Assembly (NCBI RefSeq): GCF_001553545.1 | Contig: NZ_CP014227.1 | Span: forward strand, 1,966,501-2,030,500 | Direction: 5' to 3' | Origin: Capnocytophaga haemolytica | Lineage (GTDB): Bacteria > Bacteroidota > Bacteroidia > Flavobacteriales > Flavobacteriaceae | DNA: 64,000 nucleotides | Part shown: piece after piece, positions 7,462 to 54,979 of the stretch | Position numbering within the stretch: the first letter of the stretch is position 1 | Layout of the letters: each line of letters starts with the position of its first letter | Made by a program: the position numbers and the translations under genes | Notes under the pieces: generated by a model | Database searches by the model: none | Told to the model about the DNA's origin: nothing | What the model saw: the letters and a program-made list of their open reading frames with translations, nothing else

Positions 7462-7494
7462 CGGTTCCCTATCGGATTCACTTCGGATCACCTC
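7462..7494. repeat. Undecad array: CG every 11 bp, three units
   Basis: CGG recurs at 7462, 7473 and 7484, exactly 11 bases apart, with partly similar units (CGGATTCACTT, CGGATCACCTC). It lies about 65-95 bases upstream of the prmA -7 element. Confidence 0.5.
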
Positions 7495-7556
7495 TGAAGA
7501 AAACCCCTTCAGAAAATATTTCTATTCATCTTCCGCACTGTTTAAGCAAAAATACG

Positions 7557-7564
7557 TACCTTTG
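7557..7564 (+). promoter_or_regulatory. -7 element (TACCTTTG) for prmA-clpS
   Basis: TACCTTTG 18 bases upstream of the prmA ATG fits the Bacteroidota -7 consensus; no clear -33 TTTG is seen. Confidence 0.6.
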
Positions 7565-7582
7565 TAGCCTCAATATAAGTAT

Positions 7583-8416
7583 ATGCAGAACTATATAGAA
7601 TACGACTTTACCATCACCCCCCGCGAGGTAGGTGCTGAGATATTAGTGGCTGAGCTCGCCGAGGTGGGCTTTGAAAGCTTCGTAGATACCGAGGGCGGAC
7701 TCTTAGCCTATATCCAAGAGCCCTTGTGGAACGAGGCAATCCTCAGTGATATTTACATCCTGCAAAACCCTGATTTCACCGTCTCCTACACCTATAAGAC
7801 CATTCCACAAGTCAATTGGAATGAGGAGTGGGAAAAGAACTTCGACCCTATCGTAGTCGAGGGAGCCTGCACCGTGCGCGCCTCCTTCCACCCTGCGGCA
7901 ACCACCCCTTATGAGATTGTCATCACCCCGAAGATGAGTTTCGGCACAGGCCACCACGAGACTACCTATATGATGCTCCAATTCCTGCTCACACTCGACC
8001 TGAAGGACAAGGGCGTGCTTGATATGGGCTGTGGCACCAGTGTGCTCGCCATTATGGCAGAAAAGCGCGGCGCAGCAGAAGTGTTGGCAGTGGACATTGA
8101 CGACTGGTGCGTTGAAAACTCCCTTGAGAACATAGCGCACAACGCCTGCGAGCACATTTCCGTATTGCTGGGCGACGCCTCACAACTCAACGGACGCACC
8201 TTCGACCTTATTATTGCCAATATCAACCGCAATATCCTCCTTGCCGACATCCCTCACTATGCTGCCTCACTCACCCACGGCGGCACCCTATTGCTCAGCG
8301 GCTTCTACACCGAAGATATACCCGCCATCACCGAGCAATGCACCGCCCACGCACTTCGTTTTGTACAAAACTTAGAGCGCAACAACTGGGCAGCCGTTCA
8401 ATTTACAAAACAATAA
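7583..8416 (+). CDS. prmA: Ribosomal protein L11 methyltransferase
   Basis: 277 aa. PrmA trimethylates ribosomal protein L11 using S-adenosylmethionine. The N-terminal L11-recognition domain (1 to about 95) leads by a linker to a Rossmann methyltransferase: MSFGTGHHETTYMML, then motif I LDMGCGTSVLAIMAEKRGA, an acidic ribose-binding end in VLAVDIDDW, and motif IV LIIANINRNIL. It is followed by clpS after 4 bases, a pairing common in flavobacteria. Confidence 0.94.
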   Translation: MQNYIEYDFTITPREVGAEILVAELAEVGFESFVDTEGGLLAYIQEPLWNEAILSDIYILQNPDFTVSYTYKTIPQVNWNEEWEKNFDPIVVEGACTVRASFHPAATTPYEIVITPKMSFGTGHHETTYMMLQFLLTLDLKDKGVLDMGCGTSVLAIMAEKRGAAEVLAVDIDDWCVENSLENIAHNACEHISVLLGDASQLNGRTFDLIIANINRNILLADIPHYAASLTHGGTLLLSGFYTEDIPAITEQCTAHALRFVQNLERNNWAAVQFTKQ

Positions 8417-8420
8417 CCCT

Positions 8421-8708
8421 ATGGTAATCAGCAACCACTCCGAAGAAACCCTTACCCAAACAGTCGTGAAAGAGGCCATTGACGAGGTCAGCACCTTAGT
8501 ACTCTACAACGACGATGTGCACACCTTTGATTATGTGATAGAGACCTTAGTGCGTGTATGCGAACACACTTACGAGCAGGCAGAGCAATGTGCCATTATC
8601 GTGCACTACAAAGGCAAGTGCGACGTGAAAAGCGGCAGTTACGACTACCTCAGTCCTCTCTGCGAAGCCCTCCTCGAGGCAGGTCTCACCGCAATGATCG
8701 AAGGTTGA
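8421..8708 (+). CDS. clpS: ClpS, adaptor of the Clp protease
   Basis: 95 aa, normal for ClpS. It delivers N-degron substrates to ClpA/ClpC-ClpP. The core LVLYNDDVHTFDYVIETL is the family signature (NDDxxxxxxV), with the N-degron-binding residues in the same segment and the helix EQAEQCAIIVHYKGKCDV matching the conserved A..I...G.C.V pattern. It starts 4 bases after prmA and shares its promoter. After the stop, CT falls at 8710, 8717 and 8724 in a short C/T-rich stretch. Confidence 0.93.
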   Translation: MVISNHSEETLTQTVVKEAIDEVSTLVLYNDDVHTFDYVIETLVRVCEHTYEQAEQCAIIVHYKGKCDVKSGSYDYLSPLCEALLEAGLTAMIEG

Positions 8709-8810
8709 GCTGTCCCCTCTACCCTACTCCACCCTCGGCAAAAGTTGTAGAGAGTTCCCCTTAGGTTAAATTTTTTCTCCCTTTCCGCTTTCTATTTGCC
8801 AAAAACTTTG

Positions 8811-8818
8811 TACCTTTG
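8811..8818 (+). promoter_or_regulatory. -7 element (TACCTTTG) for the exonuclease gene
   Basis: TACCTTTG lies 21 bases upstream of the ATG at 8840; no convincing -33 partner was found. Confidence 0.55.
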
Positions 8819-8839
8819 CCCCATTAATAACAACAAAGT

Positions 8840-10121: not shown

Positions 10122-10123
10122 AT

Positions 10124-13196: not shown

Positions 13197-14666
13197 ATGG
13201 AATTTCAGGATAAAATCATCAGCGAGGGACTCACCTACGACGACGTCCTTCTCATTCCCAACTACTCGGAAGTGTTGCCGCGCGAAGTGAGCATCACATC
13301 CAAGTTCAGCAGAAACATCACCCTAAACGTGCCCGTGATTTCCGCCGCTATGGACACCGTCACCGAAGCCGATATGGCCATCGCAATGGCACGCGAAGGG
13401 GGCATCGGCGTTTTGCACAAGAATATGACTATTGAGCAACAGGCCGCCCAAATTCGCAAAGTAAAGCGCGCAGAGAGTGGAATGATTATCGACCCCATCA
13501 CGCTGCCCCTCAACGCTACGGTGGGGCAAGCCCAACAAAGTATGAGGGAGAATCATATAGGTGGGATCCCCATCGTGGATAATGCTGGCATCCTAAAAGG
13601 TATTGTTACCAACCGCGACCTGCGTTTCGAGCAAGACCCCAATCGCCCGATAGTGGAAGTAATGACTTCGAAAAACTTGGTTACCACCAATGAGGGCACC
13701 TCGATGAAAGAAGCTGAGAAGATACTCCAACGCTCGAAAATCGAGAAACTACCTGTTGTGGACAAGTCCTACAAGCTCGTAGGGCTTATCACCTTTCGCG
13801 ATATAGCCAACCTGCAGGAGAAGTCGGCAGCAAATAAAGACCATTTGGGGCGTCTGCGGGTAGCGGCAGCCTTGGGCGTAACTTCCGACGCGGTAGCACG
13901 TGCCGAAGCACTCGTGGCCGCAGGGGTGGATGCAGTGGTGATCGATACGGCGCACGGGCATACGCAAGGCGTGGTAAGCGTTCTTAAGGCAGTGAAAGGC
14001 GCCTTTGCCGATCTCGACGTGGTAGTCGGCAATATTGCCACCGCCGAAGCCGCACGCTACTTGGTAGCCAACGGCGCGGACGGGGTGAAAGTAGGTATCG
14101 GGCCTGGATCCATCTGCACTACACGCGTAGTCGCTGGTGTGGGTTACCCCCAACTCTCAGCGGTGATGAACGTAGCGGGAGCGTTGAGGGGCAGTCAAGT
14201 GCCCGTGATTGCCGACGGCGGTATTCGCTACACGGGAGACATCGTGAAGGCTATCGCCGCGGGAGCTGACAGCGTGATGCTCGGCTCTATGTTAGCTGGC
14301 ACCAAGGAATCGCCTGGGGAGACCATCATATATGAGGGACGTAAATACAAATCGTATCGGGGGATGGGATCAGTAGAGGCGATGACCAAAGGAAGTAAGG
14401 ACAGGTATTTCCAAGATGTGGAAGACGACGTCAAGAAACTCGTTCCTGAGGGCATCGTAGGGCGGGTGGCTTACAAAGGTGAGCTGCAAGAGAGTATGCA
14501 TCAGTTCATTGGCGGACTGAGAGCTGGGATGGGCTATTGTGGGGCTAAGGACATCGCCACGCTACAATCGGTGGGCACGTTCGTACGTATTACCTCCAGC
14601 GGAATCACTGAGAGTCATCCCCACAACATAACGATAACGAAAGAAGCACCTAATTATTCGCGATAA
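13197..14666 (+). CDS. guaB: Inosine-5'-monophosphate dehydrogenase
   Basis: 489 aa. It oxidises IMP to XMP, the committed step of GMP synthesis. TIM-barrel start EGLTYDDVLLIPNYSEVLP; two CBS domains (about 95-205) that sense adenine or guanine nucleotides; GVDAVVIDTAHGH; the catalytic loop GIGPGSICTTRVVAGVGYPQL with the nucleophilic Cys; DGGIRYTGDIVKAIAAGAD; and the flap YRGMGSVEAM. A strong hairpin terminator follows. Confidence 0.97.
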   Translation: MEFQDKIISEGLTYDDVLLIPNYSEVLPREVSITSKFSRNITLNVPVISAAMDTVTEADMAIAMAREGGIGVLHKNMTIEQQAAQIRKVKRAESGMIIDPITLPLNATVGQAQQSMRENHIGGIPIVDNAGILKGIVTNRDLRFEQDPNRPIVEVMTSKNLVTTNEGTSMKEAEKILQRSKIEKLPVVDKSYKLVGLITFRDIANLQEKSAANKDHLGRLRVAAALGVTSDAVARAEALVAAGVDAVVIDTAHGHTQGVVSVLKAVKGAFADLDVVVGNIATAEAARYLVANGADGVKVGIGPGSICTTRVVAGVGYPQLSAVMNVAGALRGSQVPVIADGGIRYTGDIVKAIAAGADSVMLGSMLAGTKESPGETIIYEGRKYKSYRGMGSVEAMTKGSKDRYFQDVEDDVKKLVPEGIVGRVAYKGELQESMHQFIGGLRAGMGYCGAKDIATLQSVGTFVRITSSGITESHPHNITITKEAPNYSR

Positions 14667-14794: not shown

Positions 14795-15075
14795 TTCTCT
14801 AACCGTTGAAACCTCACCAATATTTTTGGTTACCCATTAACGTACCGTTGAACCTTCCAAAACACTTTTTGAGTAACCGTCCCCATACCGTTGAACCCTC
14901 CCCAACAATTTCTGACTAAGTATTCCCATACCTTTGATAGGTCGCCAACATTTTTGGGTAGGCGTCCCCATACCGTTGATGTATTCAAAATAATTTTGGG
15001 TAGATATTCTCATATAGTTGATGTCTTCAAAATAATTTTGGGTAGGCGTTCTCATATAGTTGATGCGTTGAAAAC
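14795..15075. repeat. Seven-copy 42-43 bp tandem array with internal dyads
   Basis: The core (C)CGTTGA or its variant recurs at 14805, 14847, 14890, 14933, 14975, 15017 and 15059, spacings 42, 43, 43, 42, 42 and 42. Units 5 and 6 are nearly identical; outer ones are more diverged. About 10-20 bases after the core most units carry a small inverted repeat whose arms differ but still pair: ACCAA/TTGGT in unit 1, CAAAA/TTTTG in unit 2, CCAA/TTGG in unit 4, and CAAAAT/ATTTTG in units 5 and 6. The 42-base step is close to four helical turns. Confidence 0.85.
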
Positions 15076-15255: not shown

Positions 15256-18200
15256 TTAACGATACAGTGTAAAGTTGCCGTAGAACTCACGTTTGTCGTA
15301 GAGTTCGTCGTTCAATTCTACGATGTACCAGTAGTCGCCCGAAGGCATCTCTTTGCCGTCGTACTTACCGTCCCAACCTTCACCAGGCTTCAACGTCTTG
15401 AGGCGACGTCCATAACGATCGTAAATATGGATTCGAGTATTCATATTATTCTCGACGTTTTCTGGTTTCCAAGTGTCGTTCTCGCCGTCTCCGTTCGGAG
15501 TAAAGTTGTTCGGGATGAAAAGGTCGATGTACGGCTGCTCGATAGTCATCGTGCGCGTGCAACCTTCGGCGTCTTCGACCTTCACTTCGATGATCTTGAT
15601 GTGAACATCGCCGACTACACGCTCAGGATCTCTTGGGCGCAGTTTATACACAGGGTTTCCATCCTGACTTACTCCGTTGAAGTAGTAAGTGTATCCTTTA
15701 ACTGCGGTCGTGATTCCGCCAGTAGCCTTCACCTCTATGGTGTTCATCGTAGTGTTACTTACTTGGGTGAGTGCCAATGCCGTCATTGTCACCACGGAGA
15801 AGTCTTTGGTGGAAGTACATACCCCTGTAAGTGGCGCCACAGCTGTGTAAGTAACCTCTATCGTTTGCGATCTTACGCCACGGTTATAGTTGTCGATGTA
15901 GGCAATGTTGCCGACGGTTCGAGTGAACGTTGTGGCGGGACCTCCATTGAGGCTGTAGGTGATGTTGGTAAAGTCGATGTTCTTATTCCTAAAGCTTACC
16001 ACCAAGAAATCTTTGAAATTGTTGGTGTTCGCCTCGCAGGTTCCTTCCTGCTCAACGTAATTGATGGCAATATCAGGGAATTCCTGTACGGTAAACGATA
16101 GGGTTCGGGTCATCGTACACTTGTTGGTATCAACAATCACTACTTGGTAGAAGGTTCCTGCTGGTGTTGGAGACAAGTTGTCAAACAGTTCGGACGAGCC
16201 CGCAGCCACGCCTGTGTGGCCAGTGGTTATCTTCTGCTTGGTATCTGCCCTTATGATGTCGACAGTGTAGCTGCCCGTACCGCCCGCGATGTTGTGTACC
16301 ACCACCGAGCCGTTGTTGGTGCCGTAGCAAGTGTAGAACGACGAAGCCGTAGTGTTGATATCTGCCGTGATAGGCGTTGGATTATCAAACTGATAAGTGC
16401 CTGCTAAGGTGATCGAGCAGTTCTTAGCATCAACGATATCGATGCGGTAAGTGCCTGGCTCGATGCCTGTGAACTCAGCGTGGTCGTCGTTGGTTGCCAC
16501 AGGTGGGAGCTGGCTGCCCGTAGCTGATGTGCGTACCAAAATGTAGTGGTAAGGTCTTGTGCCACCTTGTACGCCTTCTATCCTCAGCTTGCCGTCCTTA
16601 GCATCCACACAAGTGATCGACTGTGTCGTTACCGAGATGGTGCTGGTGTTGATGCCGTTGTACGGATCAATGGTCACTGAAAGTGTCCCCGTTACTTGTG
16701 TACAGCCCAGCGCATCTTTGATGGTGATATTATACGTACCTGCGTCTAAGCCGCCGAACTCTACGCCAGGCGAACCCGTAGTGACGTCGCTCTGGGTATG
16801 TGCTACACCCGTTGCAGCGTTAGTAAGGGTGATGGTGTACGTTTCTTGGCCACCTACCACATATACTGAGGCTACACCGTTCTGATTAGCGCAATCCACG
16901 GAAACTTTCTGTTTGGCTTCGATCTTCATCTCGGCTGGGTTGCTTGGGATGGTGAACCTTGTAGCAGGGATGTTGCATCCTACGCCACTAACGGTTGCCA
17001 CGATGTCATACGAGCCTCCTTTGAGCTGACCAGTGATGGTGGTGACATTTCCTGCCACAGTGCCTGTAAGCGGCGTCATCGATGGATTGCTTACCGATGT
17101 GATGGTGTAAGTAAATCCATTGGTGCTTTGGTCGCCATTAGAAAGGTCTTTATCAACCACTCTCAAAGTGATCGCGCCGAAGTCGTTGTGACATTGTGCA
17201 CGCACTGGGTTGAGCGCTTCCACCTCGAAGGTGTTAGGATTCTTCACTTGGTAGACACCTGTAATAGAGCAGCCTGTCTTCTCATTGACTACTTCGATGG
17301 TGTAATTACCCACTGGCAAGCCCTTAGCACCTGTCAGGTTGATAGTCGTAGCGCTTACTGTCCTCACCTCGGAGTAGCCGTTGTTGCTACTGATCATAAA
17401 CCTGAGCGGCGTACCTGCGATATAGGTAGGCGCTACGTTGGCTGTGATGGTTACTTCTTCTAACTGCGAGCAAGTAATCGATTGCGTGCTGGTAACACTT
17501 ACGGTCTTCAATTCGAATGCTGGGGCTACCGTCACGCTCTTCGTATTGGTCGTACAAGCGCCTGAGGCATCCTTGACAGTCACGTAGAAGGTTCCACCGT
17601 TAAGGTCAGTAAGGGTGTATTCAGTGCCTGTACCCACGAGCGTACCACCTTTGTAGAACTCAGTAATGTAAGGCGCCTTACCACCTTTGATTTTCGCAGT
17701 GTCGACAGTGATCTTAGGCATTGCCATAGCTCCTGCTCCTGCGCATTCGTATTGTGTGGCAGTAATCACACCTTCTTCTAAGGTGAGTGGCTCTGCTGAG
17801 TATAGTACCTTGGTTACTAACGCCTCGCAACCTGTTGCTGCCGAAGTTACCTTGATGGTGTATTCCACGCCGATAACTGTGCCGTGCAAGTTATTGAAGG
17901 TTGCTTGGTGCGAAGCCGAAGTACTTGGAGCCATCGGTAGGGTAAAGCCTGCAAGCGGAGTGCCTGTGGTGTTATCTACCGCATTAGTGATCTGGAAGGT
18001 GTAACTATCGGCATCGGTAGGCATTGTTATTTGAATGCTTCCCGTACCTGCTACGCCTAAGCCTAAGTTACATTGCTCGTCAGTACCATCTACTACGGCA
18101 TCTGCAACATTTGGCTGAACAGGATCTCTGAGTTCCACTTCCTTAACGATTGGGCAATTTTCTGTTTCGCTGTCGTACAAGCTGATGCGGTATCTGCCTT

Positions 18201-21200
18201 CGGTAGCTGGTGCTGCTATTGGGATGATACCCCCTGCTGGCAGGGCAACATCTTGATAAAGCGTTTCTGTTGGGTTAGAGCCGTTGTCCAAACGTTCTAA
18301 TGTAAATTTATAGTTGCCTGTACCTCCTGTGGCTGCTACGGTAATCTGTGCCGTAGGTGCCGCACAAGTTTTCACCTTGGTGACGGTAGCCGTAGCCGTG
18401 ATGAGCGTTGTAGTGGTAAAGGTAATTGTATCGGCACAGCCGTTAACATCTTTTACTACTACGGTATGGCTTACCACTGGGGTTACTTTAAGTTCGAAGG
18501 CACGGTTTGCTTCTGTCCATACGATAGGCTGATCGGCAGCACCATCTAAACTGTAATAGTGTGAGCCTTGACCTACTTGGCTGAGAGTGATCTTCACTGG
18601 TACTAAGCCTGAAGGATCGCCGTAAGCCTCGCACATCATCGCTGTAGCACTCACTACATCAGGTGTAAGTTCTTTACCGATAACTACATTTGCCATCTGG
18701 CGACAACCGTAAGCATCCTCTACATATACATCCCAAGTGCCATCAGGCATATTGATGTACTGCGATTGTGTAGTAGTGCGGGTCATCACACTTGGCGTAT
18801 AAGGTGCACCTGAAGCTACCCAACCGTAGGTATAGGTTGCTGTACCACCTTCAATATTGAGCCAAGCCTTACCAAGGGTATTGCAAGTAGCCTTGTCGAA
18901 CGCCTTCATCTGTACCTTCAACTGTACGGCTGACTTCTTCACATCGAAGTGGTAAGCGTTGGTACAGTTGCTTGGTGACTCAGTAAAGACTATATAATAG
19001 CTACCTGCTGCCAAATTACTTGGGGTGGTATGTGCCGCTGTCAGTGGTGCTGGCACATTGCCCACGCCACCTGCTACTATATTATTGGTATTCTTATCGT
19101 AGATAGACCACGAAACTCCTGTAGTGCCTGCCTGCAAGCCGCTCAATGTGTAGGTCACCTTACCATCATTAGCCCCCGCACAAGTAGTATTGCTGCTAGT
19201 AGCGTTGATCACTAAGGTCGACTTAGTAGCCACTGGCATTGTAGCCTCTTGAGTATAGCGACACTTCGTATCGGCATTGTACATCACAAAGGTGTATTTT
19301 ACACCAGGGATAAGGTTTAGTATCTCAGCTTCTAATCCGCCGCCTGCTGTCTGACCTTTGTACCAAGTATCAACACCACCCGCGATCACGGTGTTGTTGG
19401 TAGTAAGTACGTTGCCGTGAGGTGGCGTTACAGGGTTCTGCAAGCCTGCACGGTATACAGTGAAGTATACGTTGGAAGTAAGAGATACATTTGCGGTACC
19501 TGCTGAGATTCCTACGAACATACTGTTGGTAGTCGCACAACTGTTTTGTGGGTTTGCACGGAAGGTCATTGTAGCTACATTAGGGTTCACTATAAGATCC
19601 GTATGGGTTTCGCAACCATTGGCATCAACTACTGTGATACTGTAAGTACCGTAGTTCAAGCCTGTGAATGGCACGTCAAAGCCTGAAGCCTGTGTAGGTA
19701 TATTCTGCGTCTTGACACCACCAAAGGTCTTATTCTCAATAGTAACCTCATAAGGTGCCTTACCACCACTGATCAGTTTCACAGCGATATCGGCATCGTT
19801 AGATGCACAGCCTATCTCCTTAGTAACTCTCGCACTTATCTGAAGCATTGGGTCGCTACCGATAGTGAAGGTTTGCGTCATCACACAGCCGCGGTCGTCA
19901 GTGATGCGGAGTGTGTAGGTACCTGCTGCTAAGGCTGTAGCGCTTTGTACCGCTCCACCACCGTCGAGCACCTCTACAGTATGCGACTGTGTACCTACGT
20001 GGTAATCTGACTTAGTAAGCTGCAATTCCCCGTTGGCTTTGCCACAAGTAGCGTTCTTAGTGCGGAGCGCTCCTATGGTAAGACGTGGTGGATCGGATTG
20101 CAGGGTTACAAAGTTCTCAGCCTTACACTCTGAACCGTCAGGCTGGTAAGTCACTTGGAACCTGAATTGTGTAGTACCTACCGCCGTAGTATTATAAGTT
20201 GCTGTGCTTGGGTGGGTTGCTATATTTGTCCACGTCAAGCCGTTATCAGTACTTACCCTAAAGGTCTTCGCCATTGTAGTAATACCGCCCTTGGCTGTAA
20301 GGGTATAGCTTACTGGCGTACCTTTACAGCTTGCGTACTGCTGTGAGGTAGGCGATACAGTGAGCTCAAGCACATCGTATATCTCGGTGCTTACCGTAGT
20401 AGTACAGCCGAAGCCGTCGGTTACTACAAAGGTATGTGCCCCTGCTGCTAAATCCTCAGGGAAGGTATAGCTATTACCTGCAAATACGTAGTTGTTCAAG
20501 CCGCCTACGCGTTTTACAGAATAGTTGCCATTACCGCTCAGTACGTTGATAAGCACTTGCTTTTGAGCACCTGTCGCGTAGCAATAGCTCAATGGCTCAG
20601 CAGTAGCAGAAAGGATTGCTTTATCCTTAATTTCAAAAGTGGTAGTGGTAGCACAGTTATTGCTATCGGTTACCGTTAGGGTGTAAACCCCTGCCGCTAA
20701 ACCAGTAGCATCTACTGGGTTCACACTTGGTCCTGCATTGCCTGTTACAGGCCCTGTCCAGTTGTATTTGTAGCCTGTAGAAGCTGGTGTACCACCGCTG
20801 GCTGACAAACGAACAACTGCAGTACCTGCTGCAAAGCAAGTTACCTTTTGCGTTTGCACTACCTTAGGCGTGATAGCTGAAGGCTCGCCTACTTTATAGC
20901 CGTTGTTAAGGGCAACCACACAGGCAGGGTTGGTAGCATCTTGTACGGCAAGAGTACCTGTTTGGGTAGCCGACAAGCCTGTTACAGTAAATACCCCTTG
21001 TGCATTAAGGGTTGTGGTACTCCAAGTGGCTTGGAGAGGGTCAATGCTGTACTTAATGCTGTTAGAGCTTGGGTTTACCACCCTTACAAGCATTGTACCA
21101 TCATTACCGCCGTGGCAAGTAGGTGGCGTTGGTGTGCCATACGCCTCTAAACGCATTTCCTTACCACGCTCTATATTGATGATCTTCTCTACTTTATTTT

Positions 21201-24200
21201 CGCAATAACGTGTAGGCTGACTTACTGCAATGTTATCTAACATATAAGTGAAAGATGTAGCCCCCATAACAGTAGAGGAGATCTTGATGCGTACCTTATT
21301 ATCAGTGATACCTGCCATTTCTGCGGCTGTAAAATTGAATTCTTTCTTAGTCCAGCCGTTCAAATAAGCATTACCATATAATCCTGATATATTCTTACTT
21401 GTAATAAATGTCCCATCGGATTTATAAAGTCCTGCTGAAAGGTTAAAGGAAGAAGCCGAAGTATGATTATAAGCTGATATATCAAAACTAATCTTCAATG
21501 GTTGATTCGGTTGTATATTATCTATATCCTTATTATAAGATAATTGCGAATCATAGTAAGCATATCTACCTCCTGTAGGATCTGTAAAGTTGATACTTCC
21601 AAGTGAAGTAGAAACGACTTTTACTATTACATCTGATATTGCCTTTTGTGGTAATACATCCAAATCAACTCCTTTGCCAAAATCTTCTCTAAATATTGCA
21701 TTATAAGCAGCATTGGTAGATACTGCCTCATAGTATACTGTTAAAGTATGGGTACCAGGGGTCAACTCACGGGTAAAGGTAGTACCTGTAAGGGTCTGGC
21801 GTGGGTCGCTGTCAATAGTATACTCGTAGGTTTGGCTTGCAGTGGTGTTGGTTATGGTCACCGTTACCACCCCGCTGCCCGTGTCGCACCTATAGGTAGG
21901 TACACTCACATCAACAGTAGGCTCTACATTAGGGGTCATCACCACTGAAAGTTCTACCCTACAACCATTATTATCTTTCACATATACAGTGCCTGAGCTA
22001 CCCATATAGCCTATGTTAGCAGCTCCATAGTTAGCTTCGCCATCAAAGCTATAGGTGTAAGGAGGGGTGCCACCGTGTACATTAGTAACTGCCACCTTGT
22101 ACATCTTAGGTGTTCGGGTACTGCACGACTTGTCCTCTAATATAGTTACATAAGCTTTTAATGGGTCTTTAGGGGGTGCTATGGTAATAGGCTTCTTGGT
22201 GTAGGTACACATCGTACCCCCTACTGGGGCAAGTATCTCTACCTCGTAGGTACCTGCTGCAAGGCCTGTAAAGAGTCCACCGCTGCTTGTTTTATAAGCG
22301 GTAGTGGTGCTACGGGTACCGTCAGCCTTTAATTGGTAGAGGTTTACGGTACGGTTCTGGTTAGGCACATCAAATATCACATTGATATTACCTGCGTTCG
22401 GACTGCTTTCGCACTTGATCTCTTGTGTAGCCGAGATAGTAAAGCTGTGTGGGCTTGGGGGAGTTACGGTTACAGGGTTAGAGATCGCAAAAGCACCATT
22501 TTGGGTATCACCCACGATAAATTTGTATTCGCCCACTTGGGTAATCCCTGGTACATCTGCCTCAGCATAGGTGTCAGTAACCCCTTGGGTAGCTATTGGT
22601 GTGTTAGATGGTGCTACAGCCGTTGTGCCATTGGCATAACGTTGTACGCCATCAACCGCCCAAATAAAGAAGCGGTAAGTAGGTTTACCTCCTTCAGCCT
22701 CAAAGCGGAAGCGGGCAGTGTTACAATCCTTCCAGCTAATGAACTTAGCCTTCATCGTCATTGTGGTACGCTTCTCTATGGTAAAGTTATCAGTGTACTC
22801 ACAGTTAGGTATCTGTGGTGAGGTCACCACAATGCGGTAAGTACCTTCTGCCAAGTCTGTAATACGCGTTTCGTTGGTAGTGATATTGAGCGTCTTATAA
22901 GGAGAGCCTCCTGATGTGTACACCTTAATATTATAGGTAACCCCAGTACTATTGAGCTGCAACTTCACTGATCCTCGTGAGAAGTTAGTCTCGTGGATAA
23001 TATCACTCACCGAACCTGATAAGCCATTATTGAATACCTCGAAGTAATAGTACTGAGTACAACCTGCATTGTCAAACTTGAGGCGGTATTTACCCACACT
23101 CGAGCTATTGATGGTAAAAGTAGGGTTGCTATGGAGGTCGCCCCAGCAGCCGTCGTTAGTATTTCGGCAGTTAGCTGAGGACTCAGTACAGCTACCATTC
23201 CATTTTTGCCATTTGTACTGTGTATTGACATAGCTTACAGTGAGGTTCTTGCTACCGCCGTTGCAGAGGTAGAAGTGGCTTGTCCAGCTGCCATCACCAG
23301 CACACTCAGCCCCTACTCCACCTGCTTGTGCACGGATAGGGTCGGTAGTAGTGGATACCGTGTCAAACTGTATGGTCTCAGTGCTTGTAAGGTTGCGACC
23401 GTTGCAGTTCTTAGTCTTCACTACGGAGTAAGTGCCTGCTGTGTTAGCACCTATAAACTGGTAAGTAGTTTGTGCAGCATCGAGGGTGCCATTCACATAC
23501 CACTGATAGCTATCAAAGCCTTGCTCAGCGGTGAGGTTCATTGGGCTACCACAGAACACCTCTTGGCGTGTACAGCCTGAGGTATCAATATTCATAGGGT
23601 TAGTGCCTTGCTTTGCCTGTGGTGCTACACTACAAGCAGGAGTGCTGCTACCATAGCTCAAGCTATAAGCTGCCTCGAAGTAGTTACCACAAGGCTTCTG
23701 AGCATCAGCACAGCTGCCTTTATGCTTGAGCGGTATCTTGATAACACGCTCAGCTGTGCCTGTGCCCAAAGTAGCTGCAGGGATCGTAATGATATAGCTG
23801 TTGGTGCCTGCATTGTAAGAGGCTGTTGGCTCAGCTGAGCCTTGCTTAGCCCCGCTGGTATTGACATTGCCATTACGCTGAATGATAGTAGCATCAGGCA
23901 AGGTAACGGTAAGCGAAGCAGCGCCAATAGCTTGTGCACCTGTATTGCGATATCTTATTTCGTAGATAAACTCTTCACCTGGGGTAAGCGCTGTAATAGG
24001 TGCTCCCGAGGTATTGGTGTAACGTGCAGAAGCATCCATCTTCAAGGCTGAAGAATTCACAGTAACCGCAAATGAGCAAGTAGCTACATTACCTGCTGGG
24101 TCAGTGAAGGTATATACTACAGTAGTTACCCCCACAGGGAATTCATAGCCTGAAGCATAGTTGCGCGAAACAGTTATCGGCTGGCAAGTATCGGTAGCAG

Positions 24201-27166: not shown

Positions 27167-27193
27167 CATTTTTTTAGGGTAAGGTTATCCCTT

Positions 27194-27226
27194 CGATACG
27201 TCTTCGTTACCTATCCGTTGTGACAC
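27194..27226. repeat. Undecad array: CG every 11 bp, three units
   Basis: CG at 27194, 27205 and 27216 with TTCG joining the first two units. It lies directly after the metallophosphatase stop. Its middle segment (CTTCGTTAC, then ATCCGTT) recurs in the array at 54947-54979. Confidence 0.5.
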
Positions 27227-28137: not shown

Positions 28138-28141
28138 CGTG

Positions 28142-37277: not shown

Positions 37278-37460
37278 ACTCTCTACTCTTTACTCTCTAC
37301 TCTTTACTCTCTACTCTTTACTCTCTACTCTTTACTCTCTACTCTTTACTCTCTACTCTTTACTCTCTACTCTCTACTCTTTACTCTCTACTCTTTACTC
37401 TCTACTCTTTACTCTCTACTCTTTACTCTCTACTCTTTACTCTCTACTCTTTACTCTCTA
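37278..37460. repeat. Long heptad array, about 26 units of TACTCTC/TACTCTT
   Basis: Heptamers TACTCTC and TACTCTT alternate almost perfectly over about 180 bases; one slip gives two TACTCTC units in a row near 37365-37380. On the minus strand the unit is GAGAGTA/AAGAGTA. It fills the space between the CPBP gene start and the 82-aa gene, whose last two sense codons and stop lie inside it. Near-identity of units suggests recent slippage and likely length variation. Confidence 0.97.
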
Positions 37461-40409: not shown

Positions 40410-40427
40410 TGACTTGTTATTTTTCGG

Positions 40428-40435
40428 CAAAAGTA
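40428..40435 (-). promoter_or_regulatory. -7 element (TACTTTTG) for the O-methyltransferase
   Basis: Minus-strand TACTTTTG 18 bases before the chosen ATG; divergent from the pncA promoter 45 bases away. Confidence 0.6.
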
Positions 40436-40492: not shown

Positions 40493-40527
40493 TTTTTAGG
40501 AGTTAGGGAGTAGGGAGTAACGGACAG
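40493..40527. repeat. AG heptad array in the pncA leader, five units
   Basis: Heptamers closed by AG (or AA) follow each other from 40493, for example GAGTTAG and GGAGTAG. They sit in the predicted transcribed leader of pncA. Confidence 0.5.
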
Positions 40528-40558
40528 CATACGGAACGAAAACGAATAGACAGTAGAT

Positions 40559-41134
40559 ATGAAAGCACTTGTAATTATCGACGTACAGAATGACTTTATG
40601 CCCAGCGGGGCTTTGCCTGTGCCTAAGGGCGATGAGGTGGTCGCTGCAATCAACCGTGAGCTACATAAGGATTACGCTACGGTAGTGGCTACGCAGGATT
40701 GGCACCCTGCTGACCATCTGAGTTTTGCTGCTAACCACAAGGGGAAGCAAGCCTTTGAGGTGATTGACTTAAACGGCATCGCACAGGTGTTGTGGCCTAC
40801 GCATTGCGTGCAAGGAAGTCTTGGTGCAGCCCTTCACCCTGAGCTCGATACGCGCCCCATTGCGGCGATCTTCCGCAAGGGAATGCAGCGTGAGGTGGAT
40901 AGTTATAGTGCCTTCTTCGACAACCAGCGGCAGCACCCCACGGGGCTTCACGGTTACTTGCAGGAGAAGGGCATCACCGAGCTTACTTTCTGCGGCTTGG
41001 CAGGCGACTATTGTGTGGCTTACAGCGTGAACGATGCGCTCTCATTAGGCTACAAAGTGCGGTTGCTCACTGAGGGCATCCGCGCCATCAACGCTGAGGA
41101 CTTTGACCGCTACCGCAGGCAGTGGGGATTTTGA
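40559..41134 (+). CDS. pncA: Nicotinamidase
   Basis: 191 aa. It hydrolyses nicotinamide to nicotinate for NAD salvage. The catalytic Asp is in ALVIIDVQNDFMPSGALPVP, metal-site residues in TQDWHPADHLSF, the catalytic Lys in AIFRKGMQREVDSYSAF, the cis-peptide region and nucleophilic Cys in TFCGLAGDYCVAYSVNDAL. Full length. Confidence 0.94.
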   Translation: MKALVIIDVQNDFMPSGALPVPKGDEVVAAINRELHKDYATVVATQDWHPADHLSFAANHKGKQAFEVIDLNGIAQVLWPTHCVQGSLGAALHPELDTRPIAAIFRKGMQREVDSYSAFFDNQRQHPTGLHGYLQEKGITELTFCGLAGDYCVAYSVNDALSLGYKVRLLTEGIRAINAEDFDRYRRQWGF

Positions 41135-43727: not shown

Positions 43728-44189
43728 AAAAAATGTTTTTTTAAAAGATTTTCTACACAATTTGTCAAAGAACTTGTCGTTCTTCAACGCCCATCGTTCC
43801 TTGGCCATTGGAACTGAATTGCGTTGCAACGTCTATTAGCTATAGGCAATAGATATGCCAAAATATCTTACACCTGACAAAATGGCAGGTTTTTTAACAG
43901 AGTGTTGTATGAGTGTTGTTGTTTTACAACATTTCAGCGGTCGAAGTTATGTCAAAATGACAGACGTATGACAGGGGTGACAGGTGGGGTGGCTACAAGG
44001 GGAATTACGCACCACCCAAAAGGAATTTTAACGTTTTTCTATATTCATTCAATTATAAAGTTTAATTTTTTGCATTTCGTGAGTATTATAGTTTTTGAGG
44101 TATCGGAAAAATGGGTGAGATATGTTCGAGATGTGTTCGAGATGTGTTCGAGCAGTGTTCGAGATGAGCTCGACAGAAAATTTTTCTGT
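43728..44189. other. Spacer between bioD and the unknown 185-aa gene
   Basis: 462 bases. Holds the five-unit 11-bp array (44117-44171) and AT-rich sequence. Short ORFs on both strands look like chance. Confidence 0.6.
44117..44171. repeat. Undecad array: TTCG every 11 bp, five units
   Basis: Five 11-base units; the second and third are identical (GAGATGTGTTC), the others differ at 1-3 positions. CG falls at 44127, 44138, 44149, 44160 and 44171. It begins 19 bases after the bioD stop (minus strand). Confidence 0.9.
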
Positions 44190-44810
44190 TTAGAGGTTGG
44201 GCAGAAACTGCTCGGCATAGTCGCGGATGACTGCTGGGTCGAAGTAAGGTTCTTCGGCGATGGTACCGATGTGCTTAGCGCCTGTTTTGGCGAGGATAAG
44301 TCGCTCGGTATCAGGGGCGGGGGTGCCGCTGAAAATAATACCATAGAGGGGCAACCCGCGGCTTTGGAGTGCCTCGTAAGTGAGGAGGGTGTGGTTGATG
44401 CTGCCGAGATAGTGGCGCGATACGAGCACGATGCGATCGGTAGGGAGGATGAGATCGGCGATGGTGTCGCGGTCGTTGAGGGGCACTAAGAGTCCGCCTG
44501 CTGCCTCAATCACCAAGGGGCGGTCGGTGGCGGGGCGCACGATTTTCTCAAGGGCAATCTCAATGCCGTCAAGGGCTGCCGAGAGGTGCGGACTGGCGGG
44601 GGTGTTGAGGGCATAGGCGTTGGGGTGGAAAGTGGTATGGGGGTTGCTGATGAGCTTTTGCACCTTGTCGGTATCGGTGTAATGGAGGTCGCCCGACTGT
44701 ATGGGTTTCCAATAATCAGCCTCGAGGGCTTGGGTGATGATGGCGGCGGCGATGGTTTTGCCTACTTCGGTAGAGGTGCCAATAATGAAATAAGTGCTTG
44801 ATTTTTGCAT
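44190..44810 (-). CDS. bioD: Dethiobiotin synthetase
   Basis: 206 aa. It closes the ureido ring of dethiobiotin from DAPA, CO2 and ATP. P-loop YFIIGTSTEVGKTIAAA, YWKPIQSGD (substrate-binding Lys and CO2 site), VIEAAGGLLVPLNDRDT, and ILVSRHYLGSINHTLLTYEAL (here VLVSRHYLGSINHTL). Single gene with its own TACTTTTG promoter; other biotin genes bioB and bioF lie 6.3 and 10.2 kb away. Confidence 0.95.
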   Translation of the reverse strand: MQKSSTYFIIGTSTEVGKTIAAAIITQALEADYWKPIQSGDLHYTDTDKVQKLISNPHTTFHPNAYALNTPASPHLSAALDGIEIALEKIVRPATDRPLVIEAAGGLLVPLNDRDTIADLILPTDRIVLVSRHYLGSINHTLLTYEALQSRGLPLYGIIFSGTPAPDTERLILAKTGAKHIGTIAEEPYFDPAVIRDYAEQFLPNL

Positions 44811-49830: not shown

Positions 49831-50337
49831 CTATTCAATCCACGAAGCGTATTTGGGGTAGTTCTCCGCAGTGCGTTCGATGAGGCTTCGTTGTGCATCG
49901 CTTACCTCTTTTACTTTTTTAGCGGGTACACCTGCATAGATACTACCACGCTCAATGTGTGTACCCTCGGTAACTACGGCTCCTGCAGCAACAATACTGC
50001 CTTCTTCCACCAAACAACCGTCCATTACGATGCTACCCATACCTATGAGTACCTCATCTTCAATAGTGCAGCCGTGCACAATTGCCCCGTGACCAATAGA
50101 GACATTATTGCCAATGGAGGTAGCGTGCTTCTGATAGGTAGCGTGGATAATCACCCCATCTTGGATATTGGTGTTGTTGCCAATGGTGATGCTATTGACA
50201 TCGCCACGGATGACGGCATTATACCACACGGTGCAGTTATCGCCTAAGCTGACGTCGCCTGTGAGGATGGCATTCTCAGCAAAAAAGCAACCTTCCCCGA
50301 AGGTTGGTTGCTTTCCATTTACTTTCTTGATTAACAT
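49831..50337 (-). CDS. Gamma-carbonic anhydrase-like hexapeptide-repeat protein
   Basis: 168 aa. Left-handed beta-helix with hexapeptide repeats from about 25 to 140: GDVSLGDNCTVWYNAVIRGD, IGNNTNIQDGVIIHATYQKH, IGNNVSIGHGAIVHGC, IEDEVLIGMGSIVMDGC, VEEGSIVAAGAVVTEGT. The three His zinc ligands expected in gamma-CA (H in IIHA, H in IGHG, H in IVHG) are present. It may be a carbonic anhydrase or a PaaY/YrdA-like relative. Confidence 0.9.
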   Translation of the reverse strand: MLIKKVNGKQPTFGEGCFFAENAILTGDVSLGDNCTVWYNAVIRGDVNSITIGNNTNIQDGVIIHATYQKHATSIGNNVSIGHGAIVHGCTIEDEVLIGMGSIVMDGCLVEEGSIVAAGAVVTEGTHIERGSIYAGVPAKKVKEVSDAQRSLIERTAENYPKYASWIE

Positions 50338-50345: not shown

Positions 50346-50483
50346 TGATTAGTGGTTAGGGATTAGAGCGTAGGAGTCAGAAATCAGAGGGGAGAGATCA
50401 GAAAGTGTGGGAGGCGTATTCTGATTATTTATTGCTAATTTCTGCCCTCTGATTACTAATTCCTTATTTCTCACTTCTTAATT
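50346..50483. repeat. Inverted pair of heptad arrays between the gamma-CA and bioB genes
   Basis: Eight consecutive 7-base units ending in AG run from 50346 to 50401 (TGATTAG, GGATTAG, AAATCAG and others), then 19 bases, then nine units mostly beginning with CT run from 50421 to 50483 (CTGATTA, CTAATTT, CTTATTT and others). CT is the complement of AG, so the halves face each other and part of them (AATCAGAGGGGAGA against its near complement) could pair. The bioB stop lies inside the right half. Confidence 0.75.
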
Positions 50484-51559
50484 TTATATTTCTCCTGATT
50501 GCGCTCAATGGTATGCGTAGGGCGCGACCATTTAGGCTTTTCACCCAATGAAGGGAACTGTGAGTCGCAAGCCTCAACAGTGGTGGGGTGTGGATGCGTC
50601 TCAAATGGCTTTTGCAAGCGCATACCGAGTGCTTTGAGCATCTGCATATCGGCGTTGATGTCGGGGTTGGGCGTGGTGAGCAGCTTATCACCTGCGAAGA
50701 TGGAGTTTGCCCCTGCGAAGAAGCACATCGCTTGTCCCTCAGGGCTCATCTGGGTACGACCTGCCGATAGGCGCACTTGGGTTTCGGGCATTACGATACG
50801 GGCTGTGGCAATCATTCGCACTAAGTCCCACACCTCTACGGGAGGAAGCTCCTCTAAAGGTGTCCCCTCAATAGGCACTAAGGCGTTAATGGGCACCGAC
50901 TCTGGTTGTGGGTTGAGCGTGGAGAGGGCAACGAGCATACTCGCCCTATCTTCAAGGCTTTCACCCATACCAATGATGCCGCCGCTACACACCGTGATGC
51001 TCGTCTTACGGACGTTCTCAATGGTTTTGAGGCGGTCTTCATAACTACGGGTTGAGATAATTTCCTTATAATAATCCTCAGAGGTATCGAGATTGTGGTT
51101 ATAGGCGTATAGTCCCGCTTCGGCGAGGCGTTGTGCTTGGTTCTCAGTGATCATACCAAGGGTGCAGCACACTTCCATATCGAGCTTGTTGATGGTGCGC
51201 ACCATCTCGAGCACATCTTCGAACTCGGGTCCATCTTTTACGTTGCGCCAAGCGGCACCCATACACACACGCGAGGCACCTGATGCCTTAGCGCGTAGGG
51301 CTTGCGCCTTTACGTGAGGGACGGTCATCATATCGTGCTCAACCTTTACGCTGGTGTCGTAGCGTGCCGATTGCGAGCAATAGGCGCAGTCCTCAGAGCA
51401 GCCGCCCGTTTTAATAGAAAGCAGGGTTGATACCTGTACTGTATTGGGATCATGATATTTACGGTGGACTGTAGCAGCCTCGTAGAGCAAGTCCATCAGA
51501 GGGCGGTTGTAGATTTCCATCACCTCTTCTTTTGTCCAGTTATGACGTGTTTCACTCAT
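50471..51559 (-). CDS. bioB: Biotin synthase
   Basis: 362 aa from the ATG at 51559 (MSETRHNWTKEEV); the open frame reaches further but crosses the -7 element. Radical-SAM CxxxCxxC in GGCSEDCAYCSQSARYDT, VCMGAAWRN, GIIGMGESLEDRASML, LVPIEGTPLE and the C-terminal FAGANSIFAGDKLLTT. It inserts sulphur into dethiobiotin. Single gene with its own promoter; its stop codon lies within the heptad array. Confidence 0.95.
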   Translation of the reverse strand: MSETRHNWTKEEVMEIYNRPLMDLLYEAATVHRKYHDPNTVQVSTLLSIKTGGCSEDCAYCSQSARYDTSVKVEHDMMTVPHVKAQALRAKASGASRVCMGAAWRNVKDGPEFEDVLEMVRTINKLDMEVCCTLGMITENQAQRLAEAGLYAYNHNLDTSEDYYKEIISTRSYEDRLKTIENVRKTSITVCSGGIIGMGESLEDRASMLVALSTLNPQPESVPINALVPIEGTPLEELPPVEVWDLVRMIATARIVMPETQVRLSAGRTQMSPEGQAMCFFAGANSIFAGDKLLTTPNPDINADMQMLKALGMRLQKPFETHPHPTTVEACDSQFPSLGEKPKWSRPTHTIERNQEKYKIKK

Positions 51560-51581
51560 AATTCTTCTTATTTTTCGGGGG

Positions 51582-51589
51582 CAAAAGTA
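51582..51589 (-). promoter_or_regulatory. -7 element (TACTTTTG) for bioB
   Basis: Minus-strand TACTTTTG followed by CCCCC, 22 bases before the bioB ATG, like the bioD promoter. Confidence 0.65.
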
Positions 51590-51772
51590 CAAAATTATTT
51601 ATAATGGACAATGCAGATTATGTAATTTAGAAACGAATAAGCATTCAACCATCGGCAATAAAATAGCACATTTAAGCATTTCGTACCTCCTGTTGCCTGT
51701 TTATCACTGAAAATTGTATAATGATGCAAGGTGCATTTATCACCATTTTACAACAGTAAAAAATACTTTTCC

Positions 51773-51827
51773 ATAGGATCAGTATAGGAAGAGTGTAGGA
51801 TGAGTATAGGAACAGTATAGGATGAAA
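51773..51827. repeat. Five-unit 11-bp tandem array (ATAGGAWSAGT type)
   Basis: Five contiguous 11-base units starting at 51773, 51784, 51795, 51806 and 51817, for example ATAGGATCAGT and ATAGGAAGAGT. TAGGA is invariant; positions 7-8 vary. It lies about 210 bases upstream of bioB and 300 upstream of the lipoprotein cluster. Confidence 0.93.
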
Positions 51828-52902: not shown

Positions 52903-52913
52903 ATTATAGTATT

Positions 52914-53594: not shown

Positions 53595-53606
53595 TTTTTT
53601 TGATTT

Positions 53607-54012
53607 ATGAAAAGATTAGTTTTGATAGCACTAATGATTGCGGCAGCAATGGGGTGCAAGAAAGAGAATGATAGCACCACACCTACCGACCTATTAGGAA
53701 CGTGACGGTTAGTAGGTTTTGTAGAGAACGGGGCTTTGCGCGAGGCAACACCTTCAGAAAAGGAATGCCCTGAGTGCTTTACAATAACCTTCAAGCAAGA
53801 TAAAACTTTTCAAGGAAAGAGTTCTGCGAATATATTGATTGGGTCAATACGAATTTGATTACATTAAAAAGACTTTCTCAACATCGAATGTAGGGGGTAC
53901 AGAAATAAGTGAATTAGACGATGGGAGAATTTTTGTTGATATGCTTGGCAAAGTTAACCGATACGAGGTAAAGGAAAATCAACTCAGACAGTACCGCAAT
54001 GAGGGAAAATAG
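53607..54012 (+). pseudogene. Fourth lipoprotein gene, inactivated by a stop and a frameshift
   Basis: Signal MKRLVLIALMIAAAMGCKKE as in the neighbours. The frame stops at TGA 53703-53705, where the text LLGT-stop-RLVGFVENG suggests a TGG Trp codon changed to TGA. Reading on, the same frame gives TPSEKECPECFTITFKQDK; near 53844 one extra base shifts it, and the other frame continues with QYEFDYIKKTFSTSN to a stop at 54010-54012. The whole would be about 134 codons of a lipocalin/META-like small domain. The two lesions make it a decaying copy. Confidence 0.85.
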
Positions 54013-54043
54013 CTGTTATTTCAGAAGAAATAATGGCTTAAAA

Positions 54044-54084
54044 AAAGCAAAGCCCATAGGTTAATAGCTTATGGGCTTTGCTTT
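54044..54084. terminator. Bidirectional terminator after the lipoprotein cluster and cmk
   Basis: 15-bp perfect stem (54044-54058 with 54070-54084), 11-base loop, A-run before and T-run at the end. Confidence 0.88.
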
Positions 54085-54122
54085 ATAAGGGATTGGGTAG
54101 CTGCTCAAATTATCTATGGGTA

Positions 54123-54839
54123 TTAGGCTTGTGCTTTATTGAGTATTGCCTGTACCTGCTCGTCGATAGTCATATTGGAGTTGTCGATCACTACGGCATC
54201 GGGAGCTTTGCGCAAGGGCGACTCTATGCGAGTGGAATCGAGGTGGTCGCGGTGCTGAATGTTGGCAAGCACATCGGCAAAGTGCACCGAAGGGTCTTTA
54301 GCTTGGAGCTCCTTAAAACGGCGCTCGGCACGGATTTGCTCAGAGGCGGTCATAAAGATCTTCAATTCGGCATCGGGGAATACTACTGTGCCTATATCAC
54401 GCCCGTCCATCACTACGCCTTTGGCTTTGCCCATCTCGCGCTGTAGGTCTACCAGAAAAGCGCGCACCGCAGGCAGCTTGGCTACTTCACTCACGGCGTT
54501 GGCTACCTCGAGACTGCGGATTTCTTTCTCTATGTTCTCTCCATCTAAAAAGAGTTCGGCATAGCCCAAATCGGGATTGTACTTGAAGGTAAGCTGCGAT
54601 TTTTTTAATGCGGCAAGCAGGCTGTCGGCATCGATGTGAGTGAAGGTCTCGGTGGAGCCATCAGGTTGTGCTACCCCAGCGAGGGCGATGAGCCCTTTGC
54701 GGATAGCAATCAGTGTAGCAGCACGATACATCGCACCTGTATCAATATAGACGTAGCCCAAGGCTTTTGCCACCGCCTTAGCAGTGGTACTCTTGCCCGT
54801 TGATGAATGCCCATCAATGGCGATAATAATTTTGTTCAT
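54123..54839 (-). CDS. cmk: Cytidylate kinase
   Basis: 238 aa. It phosphorylates CMP and dCMP. P-loop IAIDGHSSTGKSTTAKAVAK, YIDTGAMYRAATLIAI, VMDGRDIGTVVFPDAELKIF with the CMP-binding Arg-Asp, and the lid ASEQIRAERRFKELQAK. The 40-residue CMP-binding insert is present. It is divergent from bioF across a 209-base spacer with a palindromic promoter. Confidence 0.95.
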   Translation of the reverse strand: MNKIIIAIDGHSSTGKSTTAKAVAKALGYVYIDTGAMYRAATLIAIRKGLIALAGVAQPDGSTETFTHIDADSLLAALKKSQLTFKYNPDLGYAELFLDGENIEKEIRSLEVANAVSEVAKLPAVRAFLVDLQREMGKAKGVVMDGRDIGTVVFPDAELKIFMTASEQIRAERRFKELQAKDPSVHFADVLANIQHRDHLDSTRIESPLRKAPDAVVIDNSNMTIDEQVQAILNKAQA

Positions 54840-54890
54840 TAGCTATAAATTCTTTACTTTTGCAAAAGTAATACTTTTTTGCAAACCCAA
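54832..54890. promoter_or_regulatory. Palindromic double promoter between cmk and bioF
   Basis: An 18-base perfect palindrome, TTACTTTTGCAAAAGTAA (54854-54871), contains a -7 element on each strand (54855-54862 and 54863-54870). The rightward one has TTTG at 54832-54835 with a 19-base spacer; the leftward one has TTG (54888-54890) with a 17-base spacer. It could drive both cmk and bioF, but not both at once. Confidence 0.6.
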
Positions 54891-54946
54891 AGGCTGCTTG
54901 TCAAAATTATTTTTAGGATTGAAATGCGTCTGAACGTGTAAGGCTT

Positions 54947-54979
54947 CGTTACGCATCCGTTATCGGTTCGTTAGGGCAG
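54947..54979. repeat. Undecad array: CGTTA every 11 bp, three units
   Basis: CGTTA at 54947, 54958 and 54969, exactly 11 apart. It lies in the predicted bioF leader and shares a segment with the array at 27194-27226. Confidence 0.55.

Follow-up and report, generated by a model that had tools for sequence, protein, structure and literature searches.

The intergenic spacers of a Capnocytophaga genome (G000, a single contig of 2,688,484 bp) carry a recurrent family of phased arrays in which a short anchor, TTCG or TCCG (TYCG), returns every 11 bp. The family was noticed in a 64,000-bp window (bases 1,966,501-2,030,500), for which an earlier annotation made from the letters alone (the first-pass annotation) had listed four loci with CG at 11-bp steps. 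The pattern is confirmed and is larger than that annotation had said, comprising well over a hundred stretches, mostly intergenic. We tentatively regard the arrays as a dispersed, lineage-specific intergenic repeat, with a core of phased sites at which a DNA-binding protein is predicted to dock and assemble head to tail.

An 11-bp signal throughout the genome

We sampled 20 evenly spaced 20-kb stretches of G000 together with the window (464 kb, 46,093 spacer bases). The autocorrelation check proposed in the first-pass annotation gave a strongly positive result. In the spacers, 119 CG pairs lay 11 bases apart, compared with 27.4 ± 5.3 in 40 dinucleotide shuffles, and harmonics were seen in the same comparison at lag 22 (76 vs. 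27.6) and lag 33 (41 vs. 24.1). The next largest deviations between lags 3 and 35 were found at lag 10 (40 vs. 26.1, z 3.0) and lag 15 (11 vs. 27.9, z -3.2). In addition, 28 segments matched themselves at lag 11, whereas 40 dinucleotide shuffles gave a mean of 0.82 and at most 4; two segments each were found at lags 10 and 12. Many more arrays had been predicted elsewhere in the genome, and the three-anchor pattern matched 273 times in G000 and 26 times in the reversed control, each array giving several matches so that matches do not equal arrays. The idea of one recurrent family of phased arrays was upheld by this genome-wide signal, by the strict spacing and by the finding of five array-rich species.

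A nearly exact 11-bp array of TCCGTTCTGAA, with about 19 units and an interruption, was observed near 1,860,099-1,860,311 of G000 and is possibly a length-variable locus.

Strict spacing and persistent anchors

The spacing of the anchors was determined in the spacers of three genomes. TYCG-TYCG pairs at distances of 10, 11 and 12 bp numbered 3, 64 and 0 in G000, 0, 154 and 0 in G011, and 0, 63 and 0 in G002. The agreement of filler bases between adjacent anchored units was 0.49 in G000, 0.57 in G011 and 0.65 in G002. We then compared how often the anchor T, C and G and the filler were kept in the next unit, the filler control being restricted to positions on which the first two units agreed. 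The anchor and filler rates were 0.72 and 0.60 in G000, 0.81 and 0.65 in G011, and 0.78 and 0.67 in G002. The nominal Fisher p values (5e-4, 2e-16 and 3e-4, respectively) derive from rounded rates and from overlapping triplets that are not independent. Anchors do outlast the filler; the effect is real but modest.

Because neutral divergence as large as that of the filler should bring insertions and deletions, selection on phase and anchor, and hence docking at the DNA level, would be the simplest reading of the strict spacing. At the RNA level, folding of the arrays did not exceed that of shuffles in G000, G011 and G002 (mean z on the two strands -0.38/-0.61 for 30 arrays, 0.43/0.28 for 31 and -0.22/-0.59 for 20, respectively), and no Rfam match at gathering thresholds was found within the window.

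Five array-rich species with different units

Among 20 Capnocytophaga genomes, arrays were abundant in five, as evidenced by the three-anchor matches relative to the reversed control (G000 273/26, G002 226/23, G007 148/15, G011 469/6 and G017 483/135). They were weak in one (G013, 19/4) and near background in 14 (0-7 matches vs. 0-5 in the control). The high control count of G017 is probably due to its element also having AAGCT at 11-bp steps. With anchors at 10-bp steps, the corresponding values were 5/7 in G000, 0/4 in G002, 0/7 in G007 and 0/3 in G011; the 73/5 obtained for G017 arose from another part of its own element. In stretches of 60-100 kb from array-poor species, we counted no lag-11 segments in G001, G004 and G014, one in G003 and two in G016. 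The four-anchor pattern was searched in G000 and in 394 Bacteroidota genomes of other genera; of these 395 genomes, 23 had matches and 372 had none. G000 had 48 matches (control 7), and the next highest genome had 20, so that none of the 394 genomes sampled from other genera exceeded 20.

The first-pass annotation had also stated that unit sequence varies while period and anchor persist. This holds between species: five species have different units with the same step and anchor. Among the matches listed, the dominant units were TTCGCTYAWCC in G002 and TTCGCTYATYS in G007, and G000 had a mixture. In G011, the dominant units TATCCTTCGTT/TATAGTTCGTT gave 289 matches at no more than 2 mismatches (control 0), and in G017 the dominant unit TCGTATAAGCT occurred in 135 copies. 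In a tree of one gene, bioD, the genomes G002, G007, G011, G017, G013 and G014 formed one group (97/96), and G000 stood separately on a long branch; the array label needs at least two changes on this tree.

Two observations touch on the distribution. In G253, which belongs to a different family of Bacteroidota, the TTCG pattern had no match and the reversed control, in which GCTT-type anchors lie 11 bp apart, had 30; this possibly indicates 11-bp arrays with a different anchor in another lineage. When four array types were searched as exact patterns in viral contigs, 0, 0, 2 and 0 stretches were found; the contigs of the viral collection concerned, L255 and L256, carry the G002/G007-type array and may be phage or host DNA.

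Placement between divergent genes

Gene calls in this study are longest-open-reading-frame (ORF) heuristics rather than annotation. In 480 kb of contiguous G011, 31 of 32 arrays lay outside ORFs of at least 90 aa, and in G000 22 of 29 counted arrays did so with crude ORF calls. The arrays were concentrated between divergent genes. Divergent spacers carried them in 14 of 50 cases in G000 (other spacers, 7 of 211), 13 of 25 in G011 (16 of 166) and 11 of 39 in G002 (7 of 152), whose stretches were partly picked with the array places known; in contiguous G011, the figures were 17 of 35 and 14 of 141. The odds ratio of this enrichment was 8-11. The number of arrays per kb in divergent, tandem and convergent spacers was 0.98, 0.24 and 0.16, respectively, in G000, 1.58, 0.53 and 0.92 in G011, and 1.29, 0.33 and 0 in G002. 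Convergent spacers of G011 thus showed no depletion. Of 30 copies of the G017 element, its three G000 copies among them, 18 were found in divergent spacers.

In G011, divergent spacers with an array were longer than those without (464 vs. 273 bp). The arrays of contiguous G011 lay in the middle of the spacer (n = 31, mean relative position 0.52, standard deviation 0.11 vs. 0.25 in the null, P<1/5000), at about 80 to more than 400 bp from the flanking genes. This centring was weaker in G002 (standard deviation 0.19, n = 23), and G000 did not show it (0.26, n = 22).

Dispersed copies and turnover at orthologous promoters

Near-identical copies were found at unlinked places. In G011, a 46-bp core recurred exactly in 18 places within 800 kb and was preceded by AC in 16 of them. 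The flanks of these copies differ, yet several share letters outside the 48 bp, such as CAGCT before and AGGGG after. In G017, the array lies within a 210-bp conserved core (27 copies aligned), and the element with this core has 135 copies in G017 and three in G000 (L165, L167 and L169); it was not found in 18 other Capnocytophaga genomes when up to 3 mismatches were allowed. Within G000, four spacer pairs have array segments of 37-73 bp in common. The shared segments in unlinked spacers, together with the 135 and 18 copies, demonstrate dispersal. Inverted-repeat scores were 5.0 for the G017 210-bp core (null mean 3.7, P=0.096) and 3.0 for the G011 48-bp unit (null 3.3, P=0.90), and 17 of the 18 G011 copies had no duplication beside the 48-bp unit, the remaining one having 2 bp; the true ends are uncertain in all three comparisons.

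Two further features of the copies were observed. In the G017 element, a 10-bp TCCG ladder follows the 11-bp array (e.g., L168), and some array spacers of G002 and G017 (e.g., L223 and L067) are mosaic with other dispersed hairpin-like segments (CTCGCTGGCGCAAGCTTG.. and CCCCCTCTCCTTGGGAGAG..).

We next compared orthologous promoters. Of 219 reciprocal-best pairs, 29 were used, in which both species bear arrays and both spacers are at least 100 bp; 82 pairs of array-bearing species with a spacer below 100 bp and 108 pairs with an array-poor species were left out. The loci included 27 of G017 and eleven small ones of G000 (L001-L008, L165, L167 and L169) that had been picked for array motifs. 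In this small sample, an array was present on both sides in 5 pairs, on one side in 13 and on neither in 11, and presence was uncorrelated (p=0.71). The expectation that arrays would be kept between relatives, tested here between species, was not borne out as far as position is concerned. Uncorrelated presence fits a dispersed element that turns over better than a classical regulon. Eight distinct orthologous pairs were selected and aligned, and in all eight the spacer with the array exceeded its counterpart in length. This is consistent with insertion, but the spacers are too diverged for a clean empty site to be seen. One exception to the trend is the pair of G011 L208 (496 bp with an array) and G017 L066 (559 bp without). 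A comparison of bioD neighbourhoods was uninformative, given that the flanks differ between species and some loci are reverse-oriented.

Spacing of arrays along the chromosome

Array positions were taken genome-wide from among the matches listed, within the part complete on both strands. Three genomes had one array per 14.7-16.8 kb. Compared with uniform placement, gaps below 3 kb were rare: 1 vs. 25.9 in G011 (140 arrays), 0 vs. 9.9 in G017 (64 arrays) and 4 vs. 16.5 in G000 (101 arrays). This deficit is in part due to where spacers lie. We therefore reassigned the arrays at random to spacers matched in class and length. Under this matched null, contiguous G011 had 0 gaps below 4 kb vs. 5.1 expected (P=0.0007) and 1 below 5 kb vs. 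6.1 (P=0.0007); the values below 2 kb (0 vs. 2.3, P=0.08) and below 6 kb (5 vs. 7.7, P=0.12) were less marked, and no difference was seen beyond about 6 kb. The thresholds were not preset, and six or seven were tried. Gaps below 4 kb in the 20-kb samples agreed weakly with this in both G011 (2 vs. 6.0, P=0.008) and G002 (0 vs. 2.0, P=0.086), and G000 showed no avoidance (5 vs. 3.4). In G017, regular spacing was not significant by the coefficient of variation of the gaps (0.88, P=0.21), and only the short-gap deficit stands.

Mutual avoidance would fit selection against nearby repeats, a spacing function or transposition immunity; target immunity of a transposition system would also yield it. 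We consider it unlikely, but worth stating, that the arrays are chromosome-organising sites, at which a filament nucleated on the phased array between divergent promoters would form a topological or nucleoid boundary. Such sites would occur about once per 15 kb and hardly ever twice within a few kb, each species writing its own dialect and keeping step and anchor. The array densities, the short-gap deficits and the mid-spacer position in G011 support this idea. It is limited by the lack of avoidance under the matched null in G000 and beyond about 6 kb in G011, and by the uncentred arrays of G000.

Interpretation of the arrays

In the reading that we tentatively prefer, the core would consist of consecutive 11-bp units, about 3 to 6 and rarely about 20 of them, in which a TTCG/TCCG-type anchor is combined with largely free filler. 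With a strict 11-bp step, the anchors would all lie on nearly the same side of the helix. By analogy with CarH on its 11-bp operators, a DNA-binding protein that forms head-to-tail multimers may dock along this core. Copies would be added to spacers by insertion, most often between divergent genes, and the arrays would turn over between species with step and anchor kept. We infer protein binding, cooperativity, selection on phase and spread by insertion from these patterns, and the role of the arrays may be regulatory, architectural or none.

Several observations weigh against this reading. The orientation of arrays in tandem spacers (sense:antisense) was 20:2 in G011, 1:8 in G002 (p=0.04) and 5:4 in G000, and the opposite biases of G011 and G002 argue against a directional regulatory or promoter site. 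The G011 arrays break the step at their end unit, where an extra TTCG lies 4 bp from one anchor and 7 bp from the other (31 TYCG pairs at 4 bp and 32 at 7 bp). The excess of anchor over filler persistence is modest in size, and array presence is uncorrelated at the 29 orthologous promoter pairs. Finally, G014 has no arrays and G013 almost none, although both are near G011 on the bioD tree; the element is therefore dispensable.

A substantial possibility is that the arrays are selfish or neutral dispersed repeats, either copied by recombination or similar to miniature inverted-repeat transposable elements (MITEs) or repetitive extragenic palindromic (REP) sequences. Their internal 11-bp minisatellite would stem from a founder and would have been expanded by slippage, with no host function. 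Near-identical dispersed copies (18 of the 46-bp core in G011 and 135 in G017), nearly exact tandem runs such as that of G000 near 1860099, the longer array-bearing spacer in 8/8 aligned pairs, the lack of positional conservation between species and the richness of array genomes in 7-bp arrays all speak for such repeats. It speaks against them that 10- and 12-bp spacings are nearly absent though about half of the filler bases have diverged, that anchors outlast filler, and that the TYCG anchor and the 11-bp step occur both in G000 and in a separate group. The absence of inverted ends (P=0.096 and 0.90) and of a duplication in 17/18 copies is a weak argument against them, the true ends being uncertain.

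It is improbable that the arrays are operators of one classical transcription factor and define a promoter regulon. Their promoter-side placement would suit such operators, and 11-bp tandem operators bound on one DNA face are described for CarH in the excerpt cited (PMC9304148). However, the orthology comparison led us to reject a classical regulon, as there was no correlation at 29 promoter pairs; moreover, the distance to the genes ranges from about 80 to more than 400 bp with arrays mid-spacer in contiguous G011, and more than 100 copies have drifting filler. An RNA-level element, a leader or terminator acting after transcription, is very improbable: some arrays lie in a possible leader (40521) or directly past stops (27192 and 44117), and the 7-bp TAACTGA repeats of Beggiatoaceae are proposed, in the excerpt cited, to act in translation (PMC4679880), but the arrays show no excess folding in three genomes and no Rfam match in the window, and they occur in both orientations.

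Arrays of the window

A comparison of prmA identified Capnocytophaga as the nearest relatives of the genome that contains the window. When CG positions were recomputed, CG returned every 11 bases exactly at all four loci of the first-pass annotation (7462/7473/7484; 27194/27205/27216; 44127/44138/44149/44160/44171; 54947/54958/54969). Among these, Tandem Repeats Finder called an 11-bp array at 44117-44171 alone. A strong tandem array at each of the four could not be maintained: the locus at 7462, the weakest, has two TCCG anchors and one reverse-strand ACCG and failed with both Tandem Repeats Finder and the strict TYCG pattern, and those at 27192 and 54945 are three-anchor ladders. The pattern TYCG-N7-TYCG-N7-TYCG matched six times in the window, at five places; the mean over 100 shuffles was 0.01. 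The arrays at 27192, 40521 and 54945 are among these matches. Two arrays, at 40521-40546 and 51773-51825, were added to the four. The longer segment reported as common to the loci at 27.2 and 54.95 kb was recovered as CTTCGTTAC??ATCCGTT (27202-27219 and 54944-54961, 16 of 18 bases). That the arrays sit only in spacers does not hold without exception; most do, and one strict match, at 49865, is inside an ORF.

Table 1. Arrays of the window and their gene context (positions in the window).
Position	Strand	Array	Context	Identified by
7462..7494	-	TCCG-N7-TCCG-N7-ACCG, imperfect three-anchor ladder, CG at 11-bp steps	divergent spacer, TolC-type gene (5928-7223, -) / prmA (7583-8416, +)	outside strict pattern matches
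27192..27217	+	three-anchor array TTCGATACGTC TTCGTTACCTA TCCG	about 10 bp past stop of 5'-nucleotidase-like gene (27229-28158, -); upstream of 3885-aa ORF (15256-26913, -)	
40521..40546	-	three-anchor array TTCGTTTTCGT TCCGTATGCTG TCCG	divergent spacer, O-methyltransferase-like gene (39768-40430, -) / ORF 40559-41134 (+), directly before the ATG of the latter	
44117..44173	+	strongest array; five to six units of TGTTCGAGATG	about 17 bp past stop of bioD (44190-44810, -)	Tandem Repeats Finder, CG positions
51773..51825	-	11/22-bp array, minus strand ..CTGTTCCTATA CTCATCCTACA..; anchor TTCC/TCCT without CG	divergent spacer adjoining biotin-synthase-like radical SAM gene (50471-51592, -)	Tandem Repeats Finder
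54945..54970	+	three-anchor array TTCGTTACGCA TCCGTTATCGG TTCG	divergent spacer, cmk (54123-54839, -) / bioF-like gene (55049-56176, +)	

The array at 40521 sits downstream of TATCTTTG, before the ATG of the following ORF; TATCTTTG fits TAnnTTTG, which we take to be the Bacteroidetes -7 box. The array at 44117 recurs with its flank in another G000 spacer (L013), over 73 bp at 94.5% identity. At the 54945 array, TAACGGATNCGTAACG had 8 matches in G000 with at most 1 mismatch (reversed control 0). The match within coding sequence (49865-49890, three anchors at 11-bp steps) lies near the C-terminal end of a hexapeptide acyltransferase-like ORF (49831-50337, -).

Other repeats were observed. Two longer tandem repeats, with units of 42-43 bp and about 3 copies each, lie at 14843-15065, downstream of the ORF at 13197-14666. 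A separate peak of self-matching segments at lags 7, 14, 21 and 28 (69, 35, 19 and 10 segments in 464 kb of G000) represents a heptamer phenomenon; CG pairs at lag 7 were at background level in G000 spacers (23 vs. 26.9). The 7-bp tandem arrays of G000 outnumber the 11-bp ones, have drifting units and are present in each of the three spacer classes; in the window, the longest one has about 26 copies of ACTCTYT (37278-37460). In G001, heptamer arrays of TGACTAA/TGACTAG (L031-L033) are akin in kind to the Beggiatoaceae TAACTGA repeats as excerpted (PMC4679880).

Relation to known repeats and significance

Among the best-ranked matches of open-access literature searches, no description of the 11-bp array family was found. 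The nearest relative found, as a genomic kind, is the STAR element of staphylococci. In the excerpt cited, STAR elements are interspersed intergenic direct repeats with locus-specific sequence, whose loci differ by species and whose number is unrelated to kinship (PMC3532100). The arrays are likewise interspersed, intergenic and at differing locations in each species (29 pairs, a small sample), and are set apart from the STAR description by the strict 11-bp step, short anchor, species-specific units and preference for divergent spacers. The CarH operators, as excerpted, consist of 11-bp units repeated in tandem, in which few bases are fixed and which are bound on one face of the DNA (PMC9304148). 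Tandem direct repeats of 11 bp in 3-4 units are found in both. The CarH unit nnnnTnnACAn was not recovered: ACA is missing from both strands of the dominant G011 units TATCCTTCGTT/TATAGTTCGTT when these are joined end to end, and minor variants with TTTACAG exist. The arrays also differ in their TYCG anchor, in having more than 100 copies rather than a few promoters, and in the lack of a fixed gene distance in G011.

BrickBuilt of Porphyromonas gingivalis is described in the excerpt cited as a MITE with a minisatellite of 23-nt units, small inverted-repeat ends and 19 copies in ATCC 33277 (PMC4596501). It is also a dispersed intergenic element with tandem units in Bacteroidota; the arrays differ in their 11-bp unit, more than 100 copies and no inverted ends detected at the ends tested, which are uncertain. 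The TAACTGA heptamers, in the excerpted description, are short direct repeats that abound in the intergenic DNA of a patchy range of bacteria, a few Bacteroidetes among them, and some orthologous spacers of relatives are shorter and lack the repeats (PMC4679880). Abundance, shortness, intergenic location and patchy occurrence are common to both. The heptamers have a 7-bp step and one fixed sequence, and resemble the heptamer arrays of Capnocytophaga and not the 11-bp ones.

To our knowledge, well over 100 phased and anchored copies per genome, rewritten by each species with the 11-bp step kept, are unusual for bacterial repeats. With the arrays as a concrete bait, a putative DNA-binding protein of Bacteroidota could be sought, and they also lend themselves to the question of whether bacteria keep such sites spaced on the chromosome. 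At a minimum, they are a large repeat family relevant to reading Capnocytophaga promoters.

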